From positions 186,001 through 250,000 of the forward strand of contig NZ_JACJOU010000012.1 of assembly GCF_014695725.1 (NCBI RefSeq): DNA of 64,000 bases, given 5' to 3'. A model generated the notes under the pieces. It searched no databases. It saw nothing but the letters and a program-made list of their open reading frames with translations, and was not told the DNA's origin. This document shows, one piece after another, positions 13,287 through 50,356 of the stretch (its first letter is position 1; each line of letters starts with the position of its first letter). Source of the stretch: Microcoleus sp. FACHB-672. Lineage in GTDB: Bacteria; Cyanobacteriota; Cyanobacteriia; Cyanobacteriales; Oscillatoriaceae. The position numbers were made by a program, and so were the translations under genes.

Positions 13287-16200
13287 ATGGCAATTTTACA
13301 TGGCAGTTGGTTAATTCAGCCTCAGGGGGGTTGTTTATTTATTTGGGGAGAAGTCTGGCGCAGAATGACGCTGTCTGAATCCCCAGAAGTTGCAGGGGTG
13401 TTACCTCATCCTTTGGCAATGACACCGGCTGAACTGACAGAATTTATAAAATCGTTAAAATTAACCGCGATTAAGGGATTGGGGGAAAAGGGGAAAAGCA
13501 GCCGGTGGGAGTCTTTGATTAAGGGATTGGGGGAAAAGGGGAAAAGCAGCCGGTGGGAGTCTTTAGTGTTTTCTGTTCCAACGCGGATCTCGGAAACGGG
13601 TGAAGTAACGCCTCAGCATTCCGCAGCAACGCCGGCAGAAAGTGAGGAAATGCCGGTTTATCTTTACCCTTGGCAAGTTGAAGGACTTTGTCTAGACGCT
13701 GTAGAGGCAATGCAATTTTTGCAAGCATTACCGCTGGGAAATGTGAGTGAGGAAGATTCTTTTTTAGGGGCAGATTTGCGATTTTGGTCACATTTGGCAA
13801 GATGGAGTTTAGATTTACGGGCAAGGTGTAAATTTTTACCGGCACTTCAACACAATACAGATAATTCTGCAGCCGGCACCTGGCAACCGCTACTAGACAG
13901 CGCCGCCGATCAAGGGCGTCTGGAACGCTTTTTGAAACAAATGCCGGCAGCTTGTCGGACATATCAGGGGAATGGGGAATGGGGCAATGGGCATGGGGCA
14001 TGGGGCATGGGGAATGGGGGATTAGAAAGAGAAACGACAGCCAATTCCCAATCCCCAATGCCCAATTCCCAATTCCCAATAGCAGTGAATTTACCAACCA
14101 CTCCTCAAGAATTGCTGTGGGGATTTTTGCAAAGTACCATTGATGCCCAAGTGCGACAGGTGGCGAAAAATCAAAGTGTGCCGGCATTCGTAACGCCGCT
14201 TCGGGAGTGGTTGCAAGCGTTGGGTTCGCAGTCGGCTGAGGTGAAAGCACCGGCAATGGCGACGGAACGTTTGGAGGCTACACTCAAGGCTTGGATGGTG
14301 CCGGTGCAGCATCATTTGGCGGGACAGCAGTTATTTCGCACGTGCTTTTCACTTCACCCACCGGCTGCCGGTGAGAAAGAGTGGATACTGGCGTATGGTT
14401 TGCAAGCTGCTGATGATCCAACTTTTGTAGTGGATGCTAAGACAGTTTGGAGTCATCCGGTTGAACGCTTTGTTTATCAAGGGCGCATGGTTGAACAGCC
14501 GCAAGAAACGCTGCTGAGGGGTTTGGGTGTGGCTTGCCGGCTTAATGCTGCGATTGAACCGAGTTTGGAGGAGGCGTCTCCCCAGTTTTGCCGGCTGACA
14601 CCGCTACAGGCGTATGAGTTTCTTAAGAGTGGTGCTTGGCGGTTTGAAGATAGCGGTTTGGGAGTAATTTTACCGGCAAGTTTATCAAACCGAGAAGGAT
14701 GGGCGAGCCGGCTTGGGTTAAGCATTCGAGCGGAAACGCCGAAAATTAAGAAAAATGAGCGCTTGGGATTGCAGAGTCTGCTGAGTTTCAAGTGGGAATT
14801 AACCATTGGCGGGCAAAATCTGTCTAAGGCAGAGTTTGAGCGCTTGGTGAAGTTGAATTCTCCCTTGGTGGAAATTAATGGCGAGTGGGTGGAGTTGCGC
14901 CCGCAGGATGTGAAGGCAGCGCAAAATTTCTTTACCAGTCGTAAAGATCAGATGGAACTGTCTTTGGAGGATGCGCTGCGGCTGGGGACGGGTGACTCGC
15001 AGATGATTGAAAAGCTGCCGGTGGTGAGTTTTGAAGCCGGTGGCAAGCTTGAGGAGTTATTTGCGAACCTGACAACCAATCGCGCACCAGAGGCGATCGC
15101 TACGCCAGAAAGTTTCCGAGGTGAATTGCGCCCTTATCAATCTTTAGGTGCCGGCTGGCTGGCATTTTTGGAACAGTGGGGCTTGGGTGCTTGTCTGGCG
15201 GATGATATGGGGTTAGGAAAAACCGTTCAGACGATTGCTTTTCTGCTTCACCTGCAAGAGCAAGATGCACTGGAATCGCCGGTTCTTTTGGTTTGCCCAA
15301 CCTCAGTTTTAGGTAATTGGGAGCGCGAAGTCAAGAAATTTGGCCCGACGTTAAAAGTGATGGTGCATCACGGAGATAAACGCGCTAAAGGAAAGGCGTT
15401 TGCCAGTACAGTTAATGGCAATAATTTGGTGATTACAAGCTATCCCTTGGTGTATCGTGATGCCAAAGATTTGCAAAGTGTTTCTTGGCAAGGGTTGGTT
15501 TTAGATGAGGCGCAAAATATTAAGAATTCTGAGGCGAAACAGTCGCAAGCAGTGCGGCAATTAGAGACTCAATTTCGGATTGCGCTAACCGGCACTCCGG
15601 TGGAAAACCGGCTGCAAGAATTGTGGTCAATTTTAGATTTTCTGAATCCCGGATATTTGGGGCAGCGGAATTTCTTTCAGCGCCGGTTTGCGATTCCCAT
15701 TGAGAAGTATGGGGATACCTCGTCGTTGCAAACGTTGCGCTCACTTGTACAACCGTTTATTCTGCGCCGGTTAAAAACTGATCGCACGATTATTCAAGAT
15801 TTGCCTGAAAAGCAAGAAATGACGGTATTTTGTGGTCTTTCTGCGGAACAGGCTTCTCTCTATCAAAAGCTGGTTGATGAGTCTTTGGCTCAGATAGAAT
15901 CAGCGGAAGGAATTCAGCGACACGGCATGATTTTAGCGCTGTTGGTGAAGCTTAAGCAAGTTTGCAATCACCCGGTTTTGTTTACTGGAAAACCTGAGAA
16001 GTCAAAGGGTAAAAGTTTAGGCGAGGGTGGGAAAACTGGTAAGTTGGCAACTAATGCCGGTTTGGCGGGAATTAGCACGCAGCAATCTGGAAAGCTTCTA
16101 CGCTTGCAAGAAATGCTGGAGGAAGTTTTAGCGGAGGGTGATCGGGCTTTAATTTTTACGCAGTTTGCTGAGTGGGGAAAGTTGCTTAAGCCGCATTTGG

Positions 16201-17887: not shown

Positions 17888-19789
17888 CTAGCCGTTTTTG
17901 TGTCGAGAACCTTCGCGCAAGTTTTCACGATATTCTTCCCGATCTTTTGAGTCTTGGAGGTGTCGCTGCATTAGTTCTATGATATCGTCCATATCCTCCT
18001 CGATCTCAAAGACAACAACCCGACAATCTTCATCGTAGAGGTCTTTATCTCCCTGTAAATTAACCTCCAAATCATCAAATTCTTTGAGGTTAATATCTTT
18101 ACCTAGACCTAAGCCAATAATGATAAATTTGACAATTCTTTCATCATCTATTTTGGCACAAGTCTGTTTGAGCAAGGTTTTAAATTCTGGAAGATCGTCA
18201 AATCCACCATCAATGTAGATGATAAAAAATGCGCCTTTTGATTTGCCTTCCTGAATATCCTGAAGCGTTATTTTTTCGCGTCCGTCGAACCAATTTTCTA
18301 AACACTTACGCAATGCCGGCGCGATATGGGTGTTGGCATCTGGGTTATTTTCCAAAAACAGAGAACGAACTTGTTCTGGGATGGAAACTTGACGGATCTG
18401 GCCTCGAAATCTGCGCCGGTTAAAGGTTGTGATAGCAACTTCTTCACAGACCTTTAAATCTGGGTTGTCTTTGGGACGTCTGGTTAAAATTTGCCCAACA
18501 TGACCCATTACGAGTTCTTCCATTTGCTGCCAGCGGCTTTTGTTGCTGCCAACATCTTTTAAACTCATGGAAGCGCTTTGATCGATGAGAACAAATACGT
18601 CACGGTTGTAAATTCTTTCAATTGGTTCGGCCATCATATCCTCCTGCAAAAATGCTTGTTTCTCTCGAACCCAAGTCAGATTGAAGACTTGTTGGTAAAT
18701 CGGATTTGTGACTTTCAGGAAACCCTCTTCTTTTGTCACTAACCCTGAGATAATTAATTCCCACTGTTCAGAAAATCCCTTGAAACGAATCGAGCTTGAG
18801 GTTAAAATTTTATGATAAAGGGCTAAAGCTTTAAGCTTGAGAAGTTTACCACTTGTTTGACCTCGAATAAAATAGTTTTCGATTTCTTGAAAGTGAACAT
18901 TTCTATCTTGCTTACGCCAGTTTTTAATGATTTTAGTTTGGACAATTTTTCCTACATACTCTTCTAAATTTGAATGTTCTTGCAGCTTAGGACTGCTGAT
19001 CACTAAATTGCAAACGACCTGAGTGAGAAAAGGTTGGCCTCCTGTCCAGTAAAGAATCAAATCTAGAAGTTTTGCCGCTTCATTTGGGTCTTTAGTGACT
19101 CGGTCGAGTCCCCGACGTAGGGGTTCACAGTCGCCGGTCAAATTGCTCAGTTCGATCTGAATTCCGACATTCAGTGGATAATTTTTAGTGACAAAGTCTG
19201 AGGGTTTAGCGACGCCAAGTAGAACAAAGGTGAGGCGAGTTAAAGGAGATTTATCTTTTTTATCTGATAAAGCTTTAATTTCTCCAATAAAAGAATCTTG
19301 TAAATTCCAGTTTATCAAAGTTTGAATTTCATCGATAAAAATAACCAGTTTTTTATCTTCTATTTTGCTTAAAATTTCTTCAATTAAAAATTCTTCAAAT
19401 CTTACTGAAGGCTGAATATCTTGGTTTTTATACCAGACAAAATCTAACCTTTCCAATAAATTAAGATTGGGAATTGAAATACCTTTGCAAATTTCCCGGA
19501 GAATGTTAAACCAAAGAAATTTCTCAGACTCTACGCTGCCAAGCCGGTGTAAATTTAGCTGAACACAGATTGCGCCTTCTTCAGTTAGCTTCTGTGCGGT
19601 TTTTACCATTAAGCTAGATTTGCCCATTTGACGAGGCGCAAGCACATAACAGACTCGCTCATAAATATGAGTAGAACGAGCAAAATTATAAAGTTCTTCG
19701 TCTGCCTCTCGTCCTACATAAGTAGGCGCTTCTAGAGGGAGTGTACCCCCCTGTACTTGATAGAAGCTACCCTGGCCATTATCTTCCAT
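17888..19789 (-). CDS. AAA-like ATPase fused to a C-terminal vWA domain
   Basis: This 633-residue protein has an N-terminal AAA-like (AAA_35-type) NTPase: Walker A in APRQMGKSS (about 51-59), Walker B LVIFIDEIQTLI (Asp153-Glu154), and a helical C-terminal region to about 375. A linker leads to a von Willebrand A domain beginning DVFVLIDQSASMS with the MIDAS Asp-x-Ser-x-Ser at 403-407. It ends in a charged helical tail. I prefer the ATG at 19789, 28 bases after the stop of the upstream gene; the frame is open to 19879, which would overlap that gene by 62 bases. Signal-transducing NTPases of this kind occur in regulated effector (conflict) systems; no toxin-like domain is recognised in it. It is probably translated from one mRNA with the HTH-AAA gene. 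Confidence 0.85.
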   Translation of the reverse strand: MEDNGQGSFYQVQGGTLPLEAPTYVGREADEELYNFARSTHIYERVCYVLAPRQMGKSSLMVKTAQKLTEEGAICVQLNLHRLGSVESEKFLWFNILREICKGISIPNLNLLERLDFVWYKNQDIQPSVRFEEFLIEEILSKIEDKKLVIFIDEIQTLINWNLQDSFIGEIKALSDKKDKSPLTRLTFVLLGVAKPSDFVTKNYPLNVGIQIELSNLTGDCEPLRRGLDRVTKDPNEAAKLLDLILYWTGGQPFLTQVVCNLVISSPKLQEHSNLEEYVGKIVQTKIIKNWRKQDRNVHFQEIENYFIRGQTSGKLLKLKALALYHKILTSSSIRFKGFSEQWELIISGLVTKEEGFLKVTNPIYQQVFNLTWVREKQAFLQEDMMAEPIERIYNRDVFVLIDQSASMSLKDVGSNKSRWQQMEELVMGHVGQILTRRPKDNPDLKVCEEVAITTFNRRRFRGQIRQVSIPEQVRSLFLENNPDANTHIAPALRKCLENWFDGREKITLQDIQEGKSKGAFFIIYIDGGFDDLPEFKTLLKQTCAKIDDERIVKFIIIGLGLGKDINLKEFDDLEVNLQGDKDLYDEDCRVVVFEIEEDMDDIIELMQRHLQDSKDREEYRENLREGSRHKNG

Positions 19790-19817
19790 AAGCCACTCAA
19801 TTATCCTTCTAAAACTA

Positions 19818-21125
19818 TTATAAATGTTCCTGAAAATATCGTTTGTATAACTCAAACCTAACCTCCCAGGAAAACCCATCTTGTCTAATTAAGCCGGCTT
19901 TCTCTAACTGAAACTTTGCAAACTCATCTTTACAGGTTTCTTGCTTTAAAATATTGCTAAAACACTGACGTAAATTTTGATTTCTTTGTAGCAATTCTAA
20001 ATGATTTAGTAAATAAGAACCGAATGGCCCGTTTGCCTGAACAGCCTTGCGCTCCAATTCTTCTAAACTCAGGTTATTTTGACTAATTTGATAAAGGCCC
20101 AAATTAACTAAAGCTGGATGGCCACCAACTAACGCTTTTAAAGTTTTAACTTCGACATTTGTCCAAGTTTCTAAGCCATATTTATTGGCAAGTTCTAAAA
20201 TTTGATTCGAGTTAAATTCTTCTAATTCAACCGCATCTCCCACATTCGGCATAACAGACCCGCGAATTTCTCGATCTAAATAAGTTTCTGTTGAATAAGC
20301 AACCACAATACTTGGCCAAACAATTTGCGCCTGACTAACGACCTTCATTTCAGTTTCATTCCAAGTCCTCAACAAGTTTAAAAAAGGTGTTTGAGTTTTC
20401 TCATAACCCAAAACTGCATCAATTCCGTCAATAATTAAAGTTTTGCTTTGTTTAATTTTTGAGAAAATACGATCTCGTAAATAATCTGTGCAATTTGTAC
20501 CGGGAGCAACATCGGAACGCCAAGATTTTTTTAAATCCTCTAGCTCATAGTTACTCAGCGTGCCTTTGAATGATTGAGCAATGGCATAGGTGAAACGCTG
20601 TAAAAGTTTATCTAAATTTGTGAACGCTTCGGGTTCAAAACCAACGCCTCCCAAATCGACAAAACCGACTAAATGATTCGGTTGTTTCTCTAATAAGTGC
20701 CGCAGGTGCACCAGCAAAGAAGACTTACCCATTCCTTGGGAGGCTTTGATTCTAATAAACGGCATGGCGCTCTTTTTGCTGCGATCCGCTTGTAAGGCTT
20801 GCCGGCACGTTTTATCGGCTGCTCGTTCTATATAACGTCGATCTCCAATTGGCACGATTCCGATGAGGGGATAAATAACAGGTTTTTCTTGTTTTCCGAC
20901 CCAAATAATTTCTTTTTTACTGTCCCGACCGGCACAATCAGGCGTGGTGATTTTAATAAACTTTTCTTCTTCGTATTTCTTCAGCCACCGATGAGCCGTG
21001 CTGCGTGCGCGTCCACACCATTGAGCAAAATCTCCGTCACTAATCAGCTTCTTCCAATCTTCGTTTGCCTTCAGCTCTGCCTCTAGTCGGCTCAACCCTT
21101 CCTCTTGACTCAGCTTTTTACTCAT
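19818..21125 (-). CDS. HTH-AAA-like ATPase, first gene of the pair
   Basis: This 435-residue protein starts with a helix-turn-helix-like region (about 5-80, GDFAQWCGRARSTAHRWLKK), followed by an AAA-like NTPase with Walker A SQGMGKSS (about 129-136), Walker B TLIIDGID (Asp233, Asp236) and a winged-helix-like C-terminal part (about 340-435). The frame starts with a GTG at 21149, but ATG at 21125 is the better start. The DNA-binding N-terminus suggests that it senses something and controls a promoter, plausibly its own. It is followed after 28 bases by the AAA-vWA gene. The upstream region carries repeated 11-bp boxes. Confidence 0.82.
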   Translation of the reverse strand: MSKKLSQEEGLSRLEAELKANEDWKKLISDGDFAQWCGRARSTAHRWLKKYEEEKFIKITTPDCAGRDSKKEIIWVGKQEKPVIYPLIGIVPIGDRRYIERAADKTCRQALQADRSKKSAMPFIRIKASQGMGKSSLLVHLRHLLEKQPNHLVGFVDLGGVGFEPEAFTNLDKLLQRFTYAIAQSFKGTLSNYELEDLKKSWRSDVAPGTNCTDYLRDRIFSKIKQSKTLIIDGIDAVLGYEKTQTPFLNLLRTWNETEMKVVSQAQIVWPSIVVAYSTETYLDREIRGSVMPNVGDAVELEEFNSNQILELANKYGLETWTNVEVKTLKALVGGHPALVNLGLYQISQNNLSLEELERKAVQANGPFGSYLLNHLELLQRNQNLRQCFSNILKQETCKDEFAKFQLEKAGLIRQDGFSWEVRFELYKRYFQEHL

Positions 21126-21160
21126 AAGCGCAGAAACCCACCCCCACACAACTTTAACTC

Positions 21161-21282
21161 ACGCTTGTCACTTCCCTCTTCTATTTTAAAACACAGTGCA
21201 AGGAAAAAAATAAGATTAACGCTTCACTCACGCTCCATCTAGAGAAGCATTTTTCGATTAATGCTCCATTTATGCTCTAAAA
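21161..21282. promoter_or_regulatory. Five ACGCTYCA-type boxes with 11-bp spacing
   Basis: Boxes are ACGCTTGTCAC (21161), ACGCTTCACTC (21219), ACGCTCCATCT (21230), ATGCTCCATTT (21261) and ATGCTCTAAAA (21272). The pairs 21219/21230 and 21261/21272 are each spaced exactly 11 bp, one helical turn, and the two pairs are 42 bp apart. They are upstream of the HTH-AAA gene. This fits an operator for a repeat-binding protein, possibly that gene's own product. Confidence 0.5.
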
Positions 21283-21436
21283 ATACCTAAATCTTGATTC
21301 TAAAAATATTTTTTTATCGAAACATAAAACAGTAATGACAGTTACTTTTTTATCCTTTATACCTTTATATATGGATTCGATTCACAGTCAAACCAATCAG
21401 GGAAGAAAATAATTATTGGTAAAAATTCGGGAATTG

Positions 21437-21892
21437 ATGGTTTTCCCATTACCTAATTTTTTAAATATGACACAAAGTAAAACATCCTCGGATGGAGAGA
21501 TACGGGAGAAGCTCTATCTAGTAGCCGGTGGTTCTGTGTTGGGTGCTGTCGCCTTGCTATTAAGCGGTGTCGCCTTATTTTCTAAAGTCCCGGCGAATTT
21601 ACCCAGAGAACGCTCATTAGGGCCAACACAAACTTGCGCTGAAATTGTGCAACCAAAAGCGGCATTATCGCGAGAACAATTAGCAAAACTTTTGAGCGTG
21701 CCAGAGCGCACCCAGCGCCGCAAAGTACAAGAAATTGCCAAAGAACCTTACTGCCGGCTGCCTTCTTTAAACATTCGCGCCGGGTCTACCACAGCTCGCG
21801 ATATTTACCCTTTAGCATTCGATCCGCAAACATCGCTCGTGATTATCTATGAAGGAGAAACCTATGTTGGGTATGGCTTCAAGCGTTCGTAG
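21437..21892 (+). CDS. Single-pass membrane protein of an envelope cluster
   Basis: The protein is about 151 residues, with a transmembrane helix at about 25-50 (LYLVAGGSVLGAVALLLSGVAL) and an external domain containing a few Cys (CAEIVQ, PYCRLP) and a KVQEIAKEPYC segment. I do not recognise the family. The frame is open from TTG at 21416; the ATG at 21437 has a GGGA upstream, while the ATG at 21467 has none, so the start is uncertain. Its 3' end overlaps the start of the lipoprotein gene by 29 bases, so translation is probably coupled. Confidence 0.65.
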   Translation: MVFPLPNFLNMTQSKTSSDGEIREKLYLVAGGSVLGAVALLLSGVALFSKVPANLPRERSLGPTQTCAEIVQPKAALSREQLAKLLSVPERTQRRKVQEIAKEPYCRLPSLNIRAGSTTARDIYPLAFDPQTSLVIIYEGETYVGYGFKRS

Positions 21893-22326: not shown

Positions 22327-22374
22327 GGGGCATTAGGAATTGGGCATGGGGAATTGGGCATGGGGCATGGGGGG
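22327..22374 (+). repeat. G-rich GGGCATGGGG intergenic repeat
   Basis: A run of units GGGCATT, AATTGGGCATGGGG and GGGCATGGGG lies between the lipoprotein and the M23-VanY gene. It is the same unit that occurs inside the SNF2 gene. Confidence 0.8.
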
Positions 22375-49108: not shown

Positions 49109-50356
49109 ATGACTTCAACTGATCCAACTGAGCCACCGAACTGGCGCAGACACACCGATCCACCGGCACTCTGGGTGGGGGTGTCTCTGGGTTCTGTTTT
49201 TGTGCATCTGCTCGTTTTCTGGTTGGCACGCTCTCTCAGCTTGCCGGTTCTTGTTAAGTCGGGGGATGAGCCAATTGCAATTGATCTGTTTGTGGAGATT
49301 CCAGAAACAGAAGCACCTAAAGCATCGCCTCAGCAAAAGGCGACGCCATCGGCACGCCCACAAGCGCCGGCAAAAGCAATTCCGGCACCAGTAAATAAAT
49401 CGGCTGTTTCTTCTGCTTCAGATAACACGGCGCTGCTGCCGGCACCAGCTAAGTCGCCGACGGCTTCTAACGGGGGCGTTAATAAGCCGGCACCCACTCC
49501 AACACCAACTCCTAAGCCGGCACCCACTCCAACGCCAATTCCTAAGCCGGCAGCTACAGCGACGCCAATTCCCAAGCCGGCATCCGCACCAACGCCAGAA
49601 CCGACACCCACGCCAACTCCAACACCCACGCCAACTCCAACACCCACGCCAACGCCAGAACCGACTCCCACACCCACACCCACACCAGAACCGGCTCCCA
49701 CACCCACACCAGAACCGGCTCCCACACCCACGCCCACGCCAGAACCGGCTCCCACACCCACGCCTGAACCGACTCCCACACCCACGCCTGAACCGACTCC
49801 CGAACCCACACCCACGCCTGAACCGACCCCGGAACCAACTCCGGAACCCACACCCATACCCACGCCAGAACCCGAACCGACTGGGCCGGCAACCTCTAGC
49901 GAAGAGTTGCCACCCGTACCGCCGCCAAGGGACAATCCCACAGAAACAGCTCAGCAGCCGGAGACATCGGAGCCGGCAGGGGAACCGGAACCTTCAGAGG
50001 GTGACGCTGCGGGGGTTAGAGTCAGTGTTGTGGGGGTTAGCCAAGCGAACCCAGACAAGGATCTTCCTGATGCCGGTCGAGAAGCCAAACCCATGAGGTT
50101 TTCTGACGAGTTTCCTGACTTGGCCTATCCGCCGCAAATTGATAAAATCGCTCTTGGTCAGGAGGTCACCTTGTATGTGATGGTGAGTGCTGCAGGAAGA
50201 CCTGAAGTCATACAGGTGCGGCAAGGCAGTCAATCACCGGCTTATGATCAGTGGGCGGAAAACCTGATGGCACAATGGGAATTTGAGCCGGCATACCAAG
50301 GCGGTCAACCCGTTGCCGGTGAGCTGGAGGTGCGGCTTAGAATTGACCCACTGTAG
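49109..50356 (+). CDS. TonB-family protein with long Pro-rich spacer
   Basis: This 415-residue protein has an N-terminal transmembrane helix (about 20-42), a long Pro/Thr/Glu-rich spacer (about 90-265, units PTPTPTPEP) and a C-terminal TonB domain (about 325-415) with [20 protein letters not shown] and [23 protein letters not shown]. TonB spans the periplasm and passes energy from ExbB-ExbD to outer-membrane receptors; neither partner is in the window. The spacer is long, suggesting a thick periplasm or a variable-length repeat array. Confidence 0.85.
49490..49880 (+). repeat. CCNACNCC-type proline-repeat DNA
   Basis: Short tandem units of CCNACNCC with interspersed CCAGAACCGAC give about 130 codons of Pro, Thr, Glu and Ala. 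The minus strand reads as a long Gly/Val/Ser frame, which is a shadow. Copy number is likely to vary between strains. Confidence 0.9.

Follow-up and report, generated by a model that had tools for sequence, protein, structure and literature searches.

MalT and the LAL regulators are STAND ATPase activators that work as oligomers on repeated boxes and carry a LuxR-type HTH at the C-terminus. The SARP-NOD and SARP-LAL activators AfsR and PimR, as portrayed in the relevant sections of two papers, bind direct repeats 11 or 22 bp apart with one protomer per repeat (PMC10936776, PMC5930380); the AfsR promoter has two 11-bp repeats overlying its poor -35 element (PMC10936776), and one PimR operator consists of 10-bp units (PMC5930380). 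In the same sections, a SARP comprises an OmpR-like domain and a BTA domain, and a distance of 8 bp separates the 3' repeat from the -10 (PMC10936776, PMC5930380). In addition, NTP-dependent conflict systems of multicellular bacteria have been described as operons of NTPases with vWA-like or GTPase partners, in a paper whose main text does not contain the words 'promoter' or 'direct repeat' (PMC7159879). Among the open-access matches listed (titles and abstract starts; e.g., the best 12 of 243 and the best 12 of 111), we found no paper on how cyanobacterial AAA_35 or HTH-STAND genes are controlled, or on their operators. Here we describe a phased array of 11-bp boxes upstream of such a gene in a 64,000-nt stretch of the Microcoleus sp. 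FACHB-672 genome (the window), which recurs upstream of many orthologues in one orientation and one helical phase, and which changes with the type of HTH that the adjoining gene encodes.

The HTH-AAA_35 gene (P0001, 435 aa; 19818-21125, minus strand) encodes an N-terminal winged-HTH-like region and a C-terminal AAA_35 NTPase. Its product belongs to the AAA_35 family (Pfam PF14516; 228.2 bits, gathering cut-off 27), and Pfam HTH models match the N-terminus below their cut-offs only. The downstream gene, an overlapping operon partner on the same strand (17888-19879), encodes AAA_35 above cut-off and a stretch resembling vWA at the C-terminus (a sub-cut-off VWA_2 match, E 0.013). The defence-protein models of PADLOC-DB 2.0.0 gave no match to P0001 and one to the partner at E 0.016, which places neither protein among the families modelled there. 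A PDB sequence search returned no match for P0001, a wHTH profile had weak PDB matches only (ORC2 the best at E 0.035, then Fur and SlyA/MarR proteins), and a structure prediction from three sequences was uninformative (mean pLDDT 39.3). The closest named locus found, at 98% protein identity, is in a Microcoleus vaginatus MAG.

A same-strand partner lies within 150 nt downstream in 30 of 34 loci, and the gene beyond the boxes varies in strand and length between orthologues. Pfam scans of three partners found AAA_35 in all three and VWA above cut-off in L071; the L065 partner has HEPN_Swt1 and a sub-cut-off dynamin match, with a Double-GTPase 2 gene next to it. Partners beyond these three were judged from length and N-terminus. 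As a separate observation, two adjacent open frames 3' of the HTH gene in L086 (167 and 1136 aa) have identical first 70 residues and are a partial duplication of the partner gene. In L087 and L089 the HTH-AAA_35 frame is broken or its HTH part lost, and the boxes upstream of L089 are still present.

The array consists of two tandem pairs, four 11-bp boxes in all, 91-154 nt 5' of the ATG at 21125 and 42 bp from pair to pair. Read on the gene (minus) strand, in the register TAGAGCATAAA-TGGAGCATTAA ... TGGAGCGTGAG-TGAAGCGTTAA, box 1 is TAGAGCATAAA (21269-21279, start at -154 from the ATG), box 2 is TGGAGCATTAA (21258-21268, -143), box 3 is TGGAGCGTGAG (21227-21237, -112) and the proximal box 4 is TGAAGCGTTAA (21216-21226, -101); all four are TGGAGCATTAA-like. 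A preliminary description of this DNA had placed the boxes in another register on the forward letters, as ACGCTTCACTC (21219-21229) with ACGCTCCATCT (21230-21240) and ATGCTCCATTT (21261-21271) with ATGCTCTAAAA (21272-21282). The spacings that it gave, 11 bp within pairs and 42 bp between them, are present in the sequence and are recovered by a repeat search, which returned a 22-nt direct repeat (21214-21235 and 21256-21277, 77% alike, 42 bp apart), and TRF reports an 11-bp unit at 21257-21277. A fifth, weaker box had also been proposed at 21161. The similarity exists, as ACGCTTGTCAC at that position matches 21223-21234 in 11 of 12 nt; its membership in the array does not hold, because the box (ACAAGCGTGAG, 21158-21168, minus strand) scores below the threshold of the clade matrix described below and lies 58 bp, or 5.5 helical turns, from box 4, the nearest box, and hence half a turn out of phase. 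It was therefore left out.

The orthologue set comprises 35 places that reached E 1e-45 or better, spread over 33 of the 388 genomes of the order; no additional place was found in two families (14 and 61 genomes) or in a sample of the class. Two near-copies of the window, L062 and L063, were excluded from all counts, and the remaining 32 loci were sorted by eye on their N-terminal sequence into two sets of 16, one having a wHTH and the other a LuxR-like HTH. A matrix built from the four window boxes alone, searched for pairs at 10-12 bp with 400 shuffles per region, found tandem pairs upstream of 6 of the 16 distant wHTH orthologues: L066, L067, L068 and L069 (0 of 400 shuffles each; L066 and L067 are near-identical), L077 (p 0.005) and L081 (p 0.0125). 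The result was not significant in the other ten (L065, L079, L083, L084, L086, L087, L088, L089, L094 and L095), for which the starts of L087 and L088 are probably wrong and L084 has 182 nt upstream only. On the opposite strand, the lowest value in the wHTH set was p 0.048 (L081), and p 0.033 was obtained in the LuxR-like set (L074), in which the gene strand gave p 0.015 for L090.

For a second matrix, built for the clade, tandem pairs in these very promoters served as seeds, so that 11-bp spacing is favoured by construction. It was run on the window and 14 orthologues; L084, with its 182 nt, and L087, with its start lost, were excluded. In these 15 wHTH regions it found 48 matches on the gene strand versus 6 on the opposite strand, compared with 5 and 6 in the 16 LuxR-like regions and 0.33 per 330 nt per strand in flanks. 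Phased boxes (at least two boxes 10-12, 14, 20-22, 31 or 42 bp apart) are present in 12 of the 15; matches in L094 lie 83 and 32 bp apart, and L086 and L095 have no gene-strand box with this matrix. The 24 neighbour spacings of 11 representatives are 10 bp (two), 11 (eight), 12 (two), 14, 20, 21 (seven), 22, 31 and 42, a list that omits weak matches (L079 at -52, L081 at -300 and +19, L094 at -213 and -98), the near-copy L067, L094 and one 137-bp gap in L079. Their helical phase gave V = 0.87 at 10.5 bp, a value reached by none of 100,000 random sets drawn from 10-45 bp, and the 20-22 bp spacings, which the matrix seeds did not select, share the same phase. Thus the box, its orientation and its phase recur before many wHTH-AAA_35 orthologues, where the preliminary description had suggested looking for them, and the same-face spacing that it had noted holds beyond the window with a neighbour spacing of 10-12 bp, not exactly 11.

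These motif-based tests were adopted because a plain lag count (11-nt matches of 9/11 or better at each lag, against shuffles) is also raised at lag 8 and at heptad lags. In 33 orthologue regions, the observed and shuffled counts were 5 versus 0.6 at lag 11, 5 versus 0.6 at lag 12, 10 versus 0.5 at lag 21, 7 versus 0.7 at lag 42 and 6 versus 0.8 at lag 8; in 75 broad regions, they were 11 versus 2.1 at lag 9, 15 versus 2.1 at lag 10 and 9 versus 2.6 at lag 21, with 10 versus 2.5 and 7 versus 2.1 at the heptad lags 7 and 14.

The LuxR-like clade carries a different box. TACGCA occurs within 300 nt upstream in 12 of 16 LuxR-like regions versus 0 of 14 wHTH regions (Fisher 2e-5), a motif that was picked after viewing the same sequences from which the counts come. 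Its sites in this clade number 22 on the gene strand and 5 on the opposite strand, where those of L071 and L091 lie. Neighbouring ACGCA spacings below 60 bp are 21 bp in 10 of 20 and 19-20 bp in four, the rest being 6, 8, 15, 33, 36 and 57 bp. On a tree of the AAA part (L089 excluded), the HTH label changes four times, 1 pair emerges from an independent-pair test limited to supported branches, and the AU test rejects a single wHTH clade only marginally (p 0.0485); the association between HTH and box is, therefore, carried by few independent swaps. The connection between boxes and adjacent HTH gene, which had been offered as an inference, gains support from comparison, both in the recurrence and in the change of box with HTH type.

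A third class, HTH-TIR-AAA_35, has 10-bp CTCAKRAAA repeats upstream; the TIR domain was seen between HTH and AAA_35 in L028, the one member scanned. The pattern CTCA[GT][GA]AAAnYYCA, as 10-bp repeats within 450 nt upstream, was found in 14 of 16 loci of the defining set, in none of 59 AAA_35 genes outside the class, in none of the 34 orthologue loci and never on the opposite strand. In genomes outside the defining sample, it was present at 22 of 32 places (all such places at E 2.6e-28 or better), with none on the opposite strand and none for reversed controls; near-copies among the 22 (L208-L211, L216 and L217; L213 and L214) reduce them to about 16 distinct sites. It was absent in L192 (position misplaced), L200, L202, L205, L206, L207, L212, L215, L218 and L220. 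Of 20 loci in an earlier held-out sample, the motif rule assigned 2 to the HTH-TIR class, 1 of them with the box. L039, an HTH-TIR-class gene in the window's own genome, has this third-class box at -260, so two paralogues of one genome carry different boxes. Other repeats were seen in passing. In another HTH-AAA_35 class (L025, L030, L032 and L034), 9-bp TCAGAAAA-type repeats, spaced by less than one helical turn, lie within 82 nt of the start codon. In addition, 5 of 20 loci of more distant HTH relatives (L226, L231, L236, L237 and L239) have direct repeats in the vicinity of the gene, spaced by 10 or 20 bp and in some cases adjoining a TATAAT-like element.

What might read these boxes? We consider it fairly likely, on this comparative footing, that they are a putative helically phased operator in the HTH-AAA_35 gene's own promoter, read by the gene's own product and perhaps activating. 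The HTH-AAA_35 protein would probably be the binder, each HTH of its oligomer reading one 11-bp box. Separated by 1, 2, 3 or 4 helical turns, the boxes all lie on the same side of the DNA, an arrangement in which neighbouring protomers could bind cooperatively. Binding would probably depend on NTP-driven oligomerisation and would probably activate, in which case the operon would be under positive feedback and, with it, a second gene predicted to encode an AAA_35-vWA or AAA_35-HEPN-dynamin-like protein of biological-conflict type.

The direction of control is where the strongest rival enters, namely that the same protein binds the same operator for repression, a negative autoregulation lifted when the NTPase is triggered. 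The comparative evidence fits this equally, many HTH autoregulators act as repressors, and the promoter is placed by consensus only: the candidate -10 element TAAAAT (21183-21188, minus strand), 27 nt after box 4, is a consensus match with two further TAnnnT matches within 60 nt. Against repression stands the promoter layout, which is more usual for activators. Under a strict rule, 4 of 13 rows (window, L066, L067 and L068) have a -10-like hexamer that follows the end of the proximal box by 26-28 nt, and a search of the gene strand across 21080-21480 gave no sigma-70 pair. The distance is 29 nt in L094, 50 in L065, 15 in L069, 33 in L083 and L089, and 13-15 or 54 in L088; the strict rule gave no match near the boxes in L077 and none in L079 or L081, and visual inspection places an ATAG-type element in a comparable position in L079, L081, L083 and L089. 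With the boxes ending 26-28 nt before a -10-like element in some promoters and no -35 seen, the layout leans weakly towards an activator-dependent promoter, and we regard repression as rather unlikely.

It is less probable still that another regulator binds the boxes and that the HTH-AAA_35 gene is merely its target. The boxes by themselves do not name their binder, and regulators of the PhoB/OmpR class bind tandem 11-bp repeats. A search of the 6.37 Mb of the window's own genome that allowed up to 2 mismatches found tandem sites at this locus only; four further tandem places have 3 mismatches versus two for the control, and single boxes, at 17 versus 13 for the reversed pattern, are near control level. 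Moreover, box type follows the HTH type of the adjoining gene, which makes this alternative improbable.

Least of all do we favour a chance or decayed simple-sequence repeat without function: the window does hold other tandem repeats, heptads included, and same-genus genomes are too alike to show selection (the near-copies L062 and L063 match in 173 and 170 of 175 upstream nt, with four boxes intact), but on a four-box score for two tandem pairs (unit 9-13 and offset 25-60, both free; maximum 66) none of 1500 dinucleotide-shuffled versions of the 300-nt region reached the array's 48, though the best, at 47, fell just one point short, and the recurrence, strand bias and phase in distant orthologues, together with the recurrence of a different box in held-out members of a sister class, make this reading very improbable indeed. 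Six of 425 overlapping 300-nt tiles of the window outscore the array (at 13.5, 16.8 and 49.5-49.8 kb), and all six coincide with tandem arrays in the TRF output. Elsewhere in the window, a 48-bp tandem repeat and heptad-type repeats (GGGGAAT / CCAATTC), of a kind familiar from cyanobacterial genomes, were seen at 13469-13564, 13966-14080 and 22327-22372, and were put aside. A long series of related 6-54 bp repeats (CCCACACCCACGCC and similar) at 49483-49882 is perhaps a Pro/Thr-rich coding stretch.

Returning to self-activation, it is tempting to speculate that HTH-headed AAA_35 NTPases form a large cyanobacterial family of self-addressed switches. In its own promoter, each HTH class would carry tandem repeats, about one or two turns apart, of a box particular to it (TGARGYATTAA, TACGCA, CTCAKRAAA and others), and one genome might operate many positive-feedback circuits insulated from one another, every one of which would fire the conflict operon to which it belongs after NTPase triggering and oligomerisation. 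We hold this to be possible rather than probable. The pairing of HTH class and box class itself offers a putative, readable protein-DNA code. Which box each HTH binds, and whether it turns its operon on or off, could matter well beyond this locus, since 330 of the order's 388 genomes contain matches (E up to 1e-8) to the wider HTH family to which the third class belongs.

How, then, does the locus compare with described systems? With MalT and the LAL regulators it would share an oligomeric STAND ATPase activator acting on repeated boxes, and it differs from them in that the HTH is N-terminal. Like the conflict systems in the portion of PMC7159879 considered here, the window and L065 combine an NTPase with vWA-like or GTPase partners; one difference is that the small number of proteins scanned showed no MoxR or VMAP component, and, set against the vWA-MoxR ternary system, the window pair shows AAA_35 in one protein and AAA_35 with a weak VWA_2 in the other (general Pfam scan). 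The closest likeness in architecture and spacing is to the SARP-NOD activators, as far as the sections cited above describe them (PMC10936776, PMC5930380). An N-terminal DNA-binding domain is joined to a nucleotide-binding, oligomerisation-type domain in both, and the repeats lie one or two turns apart here as well (20 of the 24 spacings fall at 10-12 or 20-22 bp). However, the DNA-binding part here is a winged HTH of weak classification, joined to an AAA_35 NTPase; OmpR-like and BTA domains are absent from the nine Pfam matches of P0001 at E up to 0.1, which sets it apart from the SARPs. In place of 8 bp between repeat and -10 there are 27 nt in the window, where the -10 is a consensus match only, and 26-28 nt where a -10 is visible. 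Moreover, the targets in the sections of PMC10936776 and PMC5930380 are other genes, whereas the array here stands at its own gene. Because domain content and distance to the -10 differ, we describe the array as resembling, and putatively working like, the SARP-NOD (AfsR) promoters without SARP homology, and not as being one of them.
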